Source of the DNA: Chromatiales bacterium
GTDB lineage: Bacteria; Pseudomonadota; Gammaproteobacteria; Steroidobacterales; GCA-2729495
Direction of reading: 5' to 3'
Assembly (NCBI GenBank): GCA_020351875.1
Contig: CP070671.1
Span: 1,346,334-1,410,333 of the forward strand
DNA length: 64,000 nucleotides
Positions 5,897-25,865 of the stretch are shown here, one piece after another (the stretch's first letter is position 1; each line of letters starts with the position of its first letter). The position numbers were made by a program, and so were the translations under genes. The notes under the pieces are model-generated. The model saw only the letters and a program-made list of their open reading frames with translations. It was not told where the DNA came from and did not search any database.

Positions 5897-7078
5897 TCAG
5901 GCCAGCAGGATCCAGCGGAACAGTTCGTCGCCCCAGGCCGTGGCGAGCGCCGTCAGCAATCCGGCGAGCATCAGGCTCGCGACCAGCACCAGCAGGATCT
6001 CGGCGCCGAGAATCGCGGCCACGCGGCCCGGCGCGGCGCCGATGCGCGTCATTGTAGTGATTTCGGCGCGCCGCAGGCGGATGGACAGCAGGAAGACCAG
6101 CGCAATCGTGGCCAGCGTTGCCAGGCCCACCAGCGCGACCGCTGCCAGCACGTACTGGCGCACGGTGAATACCGTGGCCAGCAGCTCGTCCATCACGGCC
6201 ACCGGCCGCGCGATGCGGACCGGTGCATCCGGTTCCTGGTAACGGCCTTCCAGCAAGACACCGGACTTCTGGTCGACGGGCACCGTGATGATCGCCGAGG
6301 CCGGGAACGTGGCGATGTCGCCGTGGAAATGAAACTCCCCCAGGTTTTCCGCGGTGATTTCCCGGTACTGCGCCACGGCTGCGTTCGCGACGATGTTTTC
6401 GCCATCGCGTTTCAGCACCGACCCGGATGCTTCCGGCTGGCCGAGGTCTTCGTGGCCGTGACCGATGCCGCCAATGATCCAGGCAGTGCGCATGTCCACG
6501 AACACGGCCTGGTCGTCGGGTGTGCCGGTCGGCGCCAGCACGCCGACCACGTTGAGCCTGATCGGGTAGGTACCCGTCACGTCGAACACGGTTTCCGGCG
6601 CGGTCACAACCCCGTCCCCGGGCCCGGCTTGCAGGGCCTGTGCCGCCGCAGCGCCCAGCACCGCTTCGCCGGAAATCGCCGCCGGCCTGCCGGCCGCAAT
6701 GCGCAGCTGCCGGAAGGTGAAGTAGTCTGGACTGGTGCCGACCACCGGCTGGCCCGCGACCCGGTGGCCGAGGTGCAGCGGTATCGCGGTGGCAAGCCCG
6801 CTCGCAGTGACGTCGGCGGTCACGCCATATTCGAGCGTAGCCGGCGGTTCGCTGTCGAAGTACAACGCACCCAGCACCAGTTCCAGCGGGCTGCCCGGCG
6901 CGCCGAGCAACAACGGCGTTTCAATGGCGCGCGCCCGCAGGCGTTCCGAACTTCTGTCCAGCACCAGCTCCAGCGCCAGCGGCAGGAACAGGATTACGGT
7001 GATGGCGGCAATCAGGATGCCGGTCTTCCAGCGGTTGAACACCAGGTAGCGCCAGGCGAGGTACAGCACGTGGTTCAC
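5897..7078 (-). CDS. ABC transporter permease, FtsX/MacB-like
   Basis: A 393-residue permease. It has an N-terminal membrane helix near residues 20-40, a large periplasmic region (about 45-290) and three C-terminal helices, the FtsX/MacB core topology. GTG/ATG context: its start overlaps the ATPase stop by four bases (7075-7078), so the two are translationally coupled. The substrate cannot be read from sequence; relatives move lipoproteins, lipids, peptides or act mechanically. Confidence 0.85.
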   Translation of the reverse strand: MNHVLYLAWRYLVFNRWKTGILIAAITVILFLPLALELVLDRSSERLRARAIETPLLLGAPGSPLELVLGALYFDSEPPATLEYGVTADVTASGLATAIPLHLGHRVAGQPVVGTSPDYFTFRQLRIAAGRPAAISGEAVLGAAAAQALQAGPGDGVVTAPETVFDVTGTYPIRLNVVGVLAPTGTPDDQAVFVDMRTAWIIGGIGHGHEDLGQPEASGSVLKRDGENIVANAAVAQYREITAENLGEFHFHGDIATFPASAIITVPVDQKSGVLLEGRYQEPDAPVRIARPVAVMDELLATVFTVRQYVLAAVALVGLATLATIALVFLLSIRLRRAEITTMTRIGAAPGRVAAILGAEILLVLVASLMLAGLLTALATAWGDELFRWILLA

Positions 7079-23977: not shown

Positions 23978-24841
23978 TCAGGCGGCCAAGCACGCGCGCA
24001 GCTTGCGCATGGCCTGGTTTTCGAGCTGGCGAATGCGCTCTGCAGACACACCGTAGCGGTCAGCCAGCACCTGCAGCGTGGTCTTGTCTTCGGCGAGCCA
24101 GCGCGACGCGAGAATGTCGCGACTGCGGTCGTCGAGTTCCGTCAGCGCTTCGGCGAGTTGCGCGTTGTGATGGTTCTGCCAGTCGTAGTCTTCGACCGTG
24201 ACCGCGGGATCGGCATCGTCGCTTTCCAGGTAATGCGCGGGCGAGAAGGCCTCTTCATCATCGGCACCCGGCGCCGGATCGAAGGCCACATCGTAGCCGG
24301 ACAGCCGCTGTTCCATGGCCGTGACTTCCTGCGGCGTCACGCCCAGGTCCCTGGCCACCGCTTCCGTCTCGCTGGCGCTCAGCCAGCCCAGGTGTTTCTT
24401 GGCCTTGCGCAAATTGAAAAAGAGTTTGCGCTGGGCCTTGGTGGTGGCGATTTTCACCAGGCGCCAGTTGCGCAGCACGTATTCGTGAATTTCGGCGCGA
24501 ATCCAGTGCACCGCGAACGACACCAGGCGCACGCCCACGTCCGGGTCGAAGCGCTTCACCGCTTTCATCAGCCCGATGTTGCCTTCCTGGATCAGGTCAC
24601 CCAGCGGCAGGCCGTAGCCGAGGTAACCGCGGGCAATGTGCACGACAAAGCGCAGCTGCGACATCACCAGTTCACGAGCCGCATCCAGGTCTTCGTCATC
24701 ACGAAAACGGCGCGCCAGTGCCTGCTCTTCTTCGGCGCTCAGCATCGGCACCGAGTTGGCTGCCTGGATATAGGTCTCCAGGCTGCCGACGGGTCCGGCA
24801 AGTATCAGGTCGCGATTCAGCGGGGCTACGGCAGTCGTCAT
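23978..24841 (-). CDS. rpoH: RNA polymerase heat-shock sigma factor (sigma32)
   Basis: A 287-residue sigma70-family factor of the RpoH group that directs heat-shock transcription. Region 2 has [20 protein letters not shown], and the RpoH box [13 protein letters not shown] follows. Region 4 ends with a helix-turn-helix ([16 protein letters not shown]). The ATG at 24841 is chosen because AAGGAGGA (24851-24858) sits 9 bases upstream; a GTG at 24850 touches that site. A perfect CIRCE palindrome lies upstream, and ftsX precedes it as in E. coli. Confidence 0.97.
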
Positions 24842-24869
24842 CGGGCGCACTCCTCCTTGGGACGCAATT

Positions 24870-24896
24870 TTAGCACTCGGGCATTTAGAGTGCTAA
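24870..24896. promoter_or_regulatory. CIRCE operator (HrcA site) upstream of rpoH
   Basis: TTAGCACTC, nine bases, GAGTGCTAA: an exact match to the CIRCE consensus bound by the HrcA repressor. It lies 28 bases before the rpoH start, in the likely promoter/leader. hrcA is not in this window. Confidence 0.92.
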
Positions 24897-24950
24897 ACGG
24901 CGCCTGAGTTCCGGACCGGAAACGAGAAAAAATATAATAAAAACAAACAG

Positions 24951-25865
24951 TTAAACTTTTGGCTGGATGGCTGCCAAGTGCCTGGCCACGGCCACCCAGG
25001 CGCCCGCCAGGCCGGCCAGCAGGCCGCCGCCCACCACGGCCAGGCTACTGGTGCCGTCCAGGCCCACCAGGCGGAAACTGCCGCCATACAGCATGCTCAG
25101 GCGGGCCACCGGCCCGCCCAGCAACGCGAGCCCGCCCGCCACCACGGCCAGCGCGAACAGGCCGCCCACCAGGCCATACCAGAATCCCGCGTACAGGAAC
25201 GGTCGGCGCACGAAGGCGTCCGTCGCGCCGAGCAGTTTCGCCACCTCGATTTCCGCGCGCTGGTTTTCGATGTCGAGCCGGATCGTGTTGCCGACAATCA
25301 CCACCACCGCACCCACCAGCAAGCCCGCCGCGAGCCAGATGCCGCGTCGGGTGAGGTCGAGCAGCGCGTTCAGTCGCGCGACCCAGTCGGTATCGAGTCG
25401 CACCTGGTCCACGATGTCGCGCTTGCCGAGCTCGGCGGCCAGGCGTTCCAGGTTGGCCGCCGGCACCTCGGCCTTCGGTCGCACCACCAGCGTGTGCGGC
25501 AGCGGGTTTTTTTCCAGACCATCCAGAACGCCGGCAAAGCCACCCGAGTCGCGCAGTTCTTTAAGGGCCGCATCGGCCGTGACGAGTTCCACCGACTGGA
25601 TGTCGACGACGTTTTCCAGTTCGTTGACCAGGGCCTGCGCGTTCGCCAGCTCGGCACCCGGCTGCAGGTACACGGAGAAGTCGCGCACGCTTTCCCAGCC
25701 ACCCGCCAGGGCTTCGCCGTTGCGCACCAGGATGTTGAGTCCCGCCGGCAGCGCCAGCGACACGCCGATCACCGCGACGGTCAGCAGCGTACCGCCCGGG
25801 TGGGCGACGAGCCGGCCGACGGATGCTACGCAGTTCTGCGCGTGCCGGGTGAGCCACTGCCGCAT
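24951..25865 (-). CDS. ftsX: Cell division protein FtsX
   Basis: A 304-residue inner-membrane permease-like protein that links FtsE ATPase cycles to periplasmic amidase activation. It has one N-terminal helix (about 25-45), an extracellular domain (about 50-165) and three C-terminal helices. VRDFSVYLQPG and IVGNTIRLDIENQRAEIEVA are typical. It lies three bases after ftsE in the conserved ftsY-ftsE-ftsX-rpoH order. Confidence 0.96.
   Translation of the reverse strand: MRQWLTRHAQNCVASVGRLVAHPGGTLLTVAVIGVSLALPAGLNILVRNGEALAGGWESVRDFSVYLQPGAELANAQALVNELENVVDIQSVELVTADAALKELRDSGGFAGVLDGLEKNPLPHTLVVRPKAEVPAANLERLAAELGKRDIVDQVRLDTDWVARLNALLDLTRRGIWLAAGLLVGAVVVIVGNTIRLDIENQRAEIEVAKLLGATDAFVRRPFLYAGFWYGLVGGLFALAVVAGGLALLGGPVARLSMLYGGSFRLVGLDGTSSLAVVGGGLLAGLAGAWVAVARHLAAIQPKV

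Follow-up and report, generated by a model that had tools for sequence, protein, structure and literature searches.

A predicted HrcA operator overlaps candidate sigmaE- and sigma70-type promoters of rpoH in a Chromatiales bacterium and in related genomes

Accounts of the heat-shock response usually set repression by HrcA and activation through sigma32 apart as two alternative strategies. In the Chromatiales bacterium analyzed here, these two systems seem to be connected. The rpoH gene, encoding sigma32, is preceded by a perfect CIRCE palindrome, which quite probably is a true operator of HrcA and extends over the rpoH promoter region rather than lying beside the promoters, with two candidate promoters, one of sigmaE type and one of sigma70 type, sharing bases with it. 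This overlap, which the original prediction of the operator had not noticed, is well supported by sequence comparison among related genomes.

The predicted operator at rpoH in the source genome

The window, i.e., the whole stretch of 64,000 nucleotides that was analyzed, reads TTAGCACTC-GGGCATTTA-GAGTGCTAA on the plus strand at positions 24870-24896, which matches CIRCE at 18 of the 18 fixed positions. The end of the palindrome is 28 bp from the ATG of rpoH (24841-24839, minus strand), and the surrounding features are listed in Table 1. The original prediction of a perfect 27-bp CIRCE on rpoH was correct with respect to both the operator and the gene, the latter being identified as rpoH by TIGR02392. 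When up to three mismatches are allowed, this is the only CIRCE match in the 64-kb window, whilst shuffled versions of the window contained a mean of 0.02 such matches. The whole genome, a single contig of 3.49 Mb, contains two sites at this threshold, one at rpoH and one at groESL. No intrinsic terminator between ftsX and rpoH was found in the segment 24820-25060. An inverted repeat, TTCCGG-T-CCGGAA, located just upstream of the rpoH site, is not common to the aligned relatives and was set aside. When RpoH only was compared, the nearest named loci were from gammaproteobacterial metagenome-assembled genomes, i.e., two Woeseiaceae with 68-70% identity and one member of the Gammaproteobacteria with 75%.

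Table 1. Features at the rpoH locus, in window coordinates
Feature	Position	Strand	Remarks
rpoH (sigma32, 287 aa), controlled gene	23978..24841	-	TIGR02392 412.2 bits (cut-off 323.1); Sigma70 regions 1.2, 2 and 4
Shine-Dalgarno sequence AAGGAGGAG of rpoH	24850..24858	-	read from the sequence
Candidate sigma70-type -10, TAAAAT	24867..24872	-	last bases of the right arm followed by AAT; a TG (24874-24875) would make it an extended -10; TAnnnT in 102/114 class sites
CIRCE, predicted HrcA operator (TTAGCACTC-N9-GAGTGCTAA, palindromic arms)	24870..24896	-	exact match; conserved before rpoH in the class, together with hrcA
Candidate sigmaE-type -10, TCTAA	24885..24889	-	last two bases of the left arm plus first three of the spacer; 16-bp spacing from the -35
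Candidate weak sigma70-type -35, TTAGCA	24891..24896	-	consensus match only; 18-bp spacing
Candidate sigmaE-type -35, GGAACTC	24906..24912	-	16 bp before CIRCE, the conserved register in an alignment of 113 class sites; occurrence depends on RpoE
ftsX, upstream neighbor on the same strand, outside the operator	24951..25865	-	TIGR00439 318.3 bits (cut-off 255)

The repressor on which the prediction depends is encoded in the source genome. The product of hrcA contains both the PF01628 domain (1.5e-62) and the HrcA winged-helix domain (PF03444; 5.1e-7), each over its cut-off. The gene stands upstream of open reading frames that can be read as grpE, dnaK, and dnaJ, names that were given from the translations without a family search. 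Since no CIRCE with up to three mismatches was found at this hrcA-grpE-dnaK-dnaJ operon, HrcA may not control its own expression in this organism. A TTGACA-like element is present upstream of hrcA (locus L121, around 6071-6252). The genome also contains rpoE (TIGR02939, 297.9 bits with a cut-off of 236.15), directly followed by rseA (RseA_N). The sequence CGAACTT-N16-TCAAT upstream of rpoE, which fits the sigmaE consensus at 8 of 10 positions only, is likely the rpoE promoter.

Conservation of the operator together with hrcA

That the site is conserved in relatives could be confirmed. In a set of 40 genomes, including the source genome, 37 contain hrcA, and 38 carry a CIRCE with up to three mismatches just upstream of rpoH (28 established by reading 30 loci and 10 by comparing the coordinates of CIRCE and rpoH). 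One genome in this set (G036) has neither a match to hrcA nor any CIRCE, and two others (G027 and G037) have a CIRCE at rpoH and no match to hrcA. In another genome (G019, locus L096), the spacer of the CIRCE at rpoH is 10 bp rather than 9 bp long; the extra base is located in a run of C residues and may be an assembly or sequencing error.

In a class-level sample, 184 genomes were searched for rpoH and hrcA, and 173 of them had rpoH with E-values up to 1e-45. The counts for the class cover the best 148 of these 173 genomes (150 loci), the other 25 being those with the weakest matches to rpoH. Loci that were not placed by tblastn (41) were placed by their coordinates. A site was scored as present with up to three mismatches; the decayed site of Xanthomonas (five mismatches) and the site of G019 with its 10-bp spacer are accordingly misses. 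Among the best 148 of 173 genomes, CIRCE was found at rpoH in 109 of 115 with detected hrcA vs. 5 of 33 without. As the sampled genomes are related, the Fisher values overstate independence and serve as a guide only. The exceptions are six genomes with hrcA and no site at rpoH, and five with the site in which hrcA was undetected. As a control, 100 permuted palindromes were run over the same rpoH upstream sequences of the best 148 of 173 genomes, which yielded 1 match in 14,800. Named loci with the site at rpoH include those of Dyella, Pseudoalteromonas, Methylocaldum, Nitrosomonas, Pandoraea, Trinickia, Herbaspirillum, and others, and no CIRCE was found at rpoH in the Vibrio, Pseudomonas, Shewanella, and enterobacterial loci among the 80 named ones. 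Since the site tracks hrcA throughout the class, and the permuted control and the named loci agree with this, the CIRCE at rpoH looks like an old, selected feature of the lineages that keep HrcA.

A further set of 80 genomes contained 60 from other classes of the phylum, and 10 of these 60 had loci, too few for a statement. One of the 10 (L296 of genome G278) has a CIRCE near rpoH at the threshold of three mismatches; it is a perfect one, at the start of the gene.

A candidate sigmaE-type promoter over the operator

When compared with the sigmaE promoter consensus, GGAACTT-N16-TCnnA with GGAACTT as the -35, the sequence GGAACTC-N16-TCTAA in the window matches 9 of 10 scored positions. The exact consensus occurs once in the whole genome and not at rpoH, because the copy in the window is one base off GGAACTT. 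In an alignment on CIRCE of 113 class sites (best 148 of 173 genomes), GGAACTT at positions -16 to -10 constitutes one conserved upstream block, and apart from this block the flanks are little conserved. The usual 16-bp spacing puts the -10 on operator positions 8-12, of which the TC belongs to the left arm and positions 10-12 to the spacer. The spacer is free in the CIRCE consensus, but 68% of the rpoH sites of the class sample (best 148 of 173) have T at position 10 and 81% have A at position 12. With at least five of seven bases required, GGAACTT was found at offset -16 in 68 of 114 class sites, at -17 in 10 and at -15 in 7, whilst the individual offsets between -60 and -18 gave 0 to 6 of the 114 (all best 148 of 173 genomes).

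Another explanation would be that the site is a plain HrcA operator, through which one ordinary rpoH promoter is repressed, and that its resemblance to a sigmaE promoter is vestigial or accidental. We regard this as improbable, although not negligibly so. The strong tracking of hrcA by CIRCE fits it, and the -35 is not in register in 33 of the 114 site-bearing genomes (best 148 of 173), among which 20 of the 101 with RpoE. Also 12 of 40 site-bearing named loci, including those of Pseudoalteromonas, Methylocaldum, Pandoraea, and Herbaspirillum, lack an in-register -35. The sigmaE overlap is not universal among site-bearing genomes. Furthermore, searching for the sigmaE motif with no fixed register is a weak guide, as 133 of 545 shuffled upstream sequences reach 8 of 10 positions. 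It was dropped as a test, and the case for the sigmaE promoter rests on the fixed register because of this lack of specificity. In that register, however, the -35 is sharply conserved, whilst the surrounding positions are for the most part almost devoid of information. Moreover, an element of a sigmaE promoter would be expected only where RpoE exists. Consistently, among the site-bearing genomes (best 148 of 173), 81 of 101 with RpoE, i.e., with RpoE over the profile cut-off, have an in-register -35, vs. 0 of 13 without. The two elements also go together: TCnnA is present in 75 of 81 sites with the -35 vs. 16 of 33 without it (best 148 of 173). Of the genomes that have neither hrcA nor the site (best 148 of 173), 7 of 12 with RpoE contain a sigmaE-like motif matching at least 9 of 10 positions, compared with 1 of 16 without RpoE. 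Finally, both elements are mostly absent from the groESL sites of the relatives (see below), which also argues against a plain operator at rpoH.

Several variant sites were observed in individual loci. In one locus of the Lysobacteraceae (L060), the site, TTAGCAGTCATATCCATCGACTGCTAA, shows a symmetric change in both arms, GCAGTC with GACTGC, and in two others (L024 and L025) the rpoH sites have decayed forms; the sigmaE-type -35 is kept in all three. The specificity of HrcA may have shifted in this family. In L204 and L217 (genomes G103 and G218), in which hrcA was undetected, the site, TGTGCACTC...GAGTGTTAA, gives the impression of decay, and a sigmaE-like TGAACTT-N17-TCTTA is kept. Another locus (L251 of genome G047) contains a half operator, GAGTGCTAA, just upstream of the CIRCE at rpoH, which suggests a second, neighboring site.

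A candidate sigma70-type promoter over the operator

A promoter scan flagged TTAGCA-N18-TAAAAT with a TG before the -10. The right arm of the operator plus the three bases AAT resembles an extended -10, TGCTAAAAT, which fits TGnTAnnnT and constitutes a candidate sigma70 promoter. In the class sample (best 148 of 173), TAnnnT is present at this position in 102 of 114 sites, whilst 17 offsets further downstream gave 0 to 12 sites each. Its presence does not depend on RpoE: it was found in 90 of the 101 site-bearing genomes that have RpoE and in 12 of the 13 that lack it. The corresponding -35, TTAGCA, is a weak match that is identical with the left arm of CIRCE and inseparable from the operator. 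Being part of the arm itself, its conservation is uninformative on its own.

The groESL sites of the relatives

If these promoter-like features were part of CIRCE itself, the operators at groESL should share them. As a control, 34 non-rpoH sites from those listed for the relatives and the one of the source genome were used; two of these 35 loci were without groES and were dropped, leaving 33. Among these, one has TAnnnT, two have the sigmaE -35, and four have A at position 12, and the combination of T at position 10 with A at position 12 was found in 0 of 33. Of the 28 rpoH sites of the relatives, all show TAnnnT, 24 show the -35, and 26 show TCnnA. Thus, the features are mostly not shared. 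The groESL site of the same lineage has the same operator as rpoH and presumably the same repressor, but it mostly lacks the bases of sigmaE and sigma70 type. Instead, a sigma32-type promoter (CTTGAAA...CCCTAT or similar) is located just before the groESL CIRCE in 26 of 33 loci by a strict pattern. Since the CIRCE (L122, 2370-2430, and L303-L334) is directly behind such a promoter in most of the 33, groESL appears to be controlled by HrcA and sigma32 at once.

Improbable readings: the palindrome as RNA or as a chance sequence

The palindrome could also act as RNA, i.e., as a hairpin in the 5' leader that affects the stability or the translation of the rpoH mRNA. The arms would pair perfectly in RNA and are predicted to pair. 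Nevertheless, the fold is ordinary in comparison with shuffled sequences (z -1.63; 14 of 200 as good), and no Rfam match was found between 24500 and 25200, for which reasons an RNA thermosensor or leader hairpin was rejected. In addition, transcripts from both proposed promoters would start within or downstream of the operator, so that the left arm would be left out of them, and an RNA device would not explain why the site goes with hrcA. This explanation is therefore very improbable. Least probable of all is that the palindrome arose by chance or is inherited but inactive: five of the best 148 of 173 genomes do carry it without detected hrcA, but only 2 of 100 window shuffles reach even one match with up to three mismatches while the actual match has none, and nearly all genomes with hrcA keep the site amid neighboring bases that mostly vary.

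A proposed circuit

From the observed sequences, their register, their conservation, and their co-occurrence with hrcA and rpoE, we infer as the best reading that HrcA would bind the operator and block both rpoH promoters, thereby gating a relay from sigmaE to sigma32, with GroEL as an input. Bound HrcA would hide both -10 elements, and polymerase with either sigmaE or sigma70 would be kept from starting. The activity of HrcA depends on GroEL in other bacteria, and on this basis it is proposed that GroEL, through HrcA, may hold down groESL and rpoH together. Upon protein-folding stress, HrcA activity would be lost and both groESL and rpoH would be freed. With HrcA off, envelope stress could raise sigma32 through sigmaE, whilst envelope stress alone would not raise it. 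At groESL, HrcA repression would be combined with sigma32 activation.

The full proposal is bolder. It holds that the 27-bp operator is overprinted with a sigmaE -10 and a sigma70 extended -10; that HrcA would make an AND gate of the envelope-stress input to rpoH, in which sigmaE raises sigma32 only if GroE/HrcA also reports folding stress; that the arrangement would be old in the class; and that the sigmaE promoter of the E. coli type would be a remnant left after the loss of hrcA. As a whole, this could equally well prove right or wrong. In E. coli, the rpoH promoter P3 is sigmaE-dependent. The rpoH upstream sequence of this organism reads TGAACTT-N16-TCTGA, which we take to be P3, and it has the same layout of -35 and -10 and the same 16-bp spacing as the candidate promoter in the window. 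In contrast to the source genome, E. coli had no HrcA match among the control genomes and no CIRCE in its rpoH upstream sequence.

Translational and stability control of sigma32 are known in E. coli. Because such control lies beyond HrcA, the original prediction was too strong in giving HrcA command over the sigma32 regulon; only initiation at the overlapping promoters is plausibly blocked. Its main idea, that HrcA on rpoH joins two heat-shock systems, is sound, but not unprecedented, given an earlier prediction and the recurrence of the site in the class. A perfect CIRCE was predicted at -51 of rpoH of Geobacter sulfurreducens (Rodionov and others, 2004; PMC545781, Table 8), where groESL and hrcA-grpE-dnaK-dnaJ also carry sites, and the bare idea of a CIRCE at rpoH thus has a precedent. 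It is the only rpoH case in that deltaproteobacterial table, and, comparing by description only, no overlap with a sigmaE or sigma70 promoter is described for it in the part of the paper available to us (PMC545781).

The new part is therefore not the CIRCE before rpoH but its overlap with the candidate rpoH promoters, which is not claimed here to be unpublished. No description of such an overlap between operator and promoters at rpoH was found in the accessible part of the open-access literature, a scope that leaves most subscription papers aside. Permina and Gelfand reportedly treated the HrcA/CIRCE regulons of beta-, gamma-, and epsilonproteobacteria, and their work is the most likely to list the rpoH sites of this class already.

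If the reading of a conserved operator inside the rpoH promoters is true, it would join HrcA and sigma32 into one circuit in many beta- and gammaproteobacteria. Envelope stress would be tied in through sigmaE, and a testable account would be available of how the arrangement in E. coli originated. The register of three short elements would give a sharp prediction for each genome.
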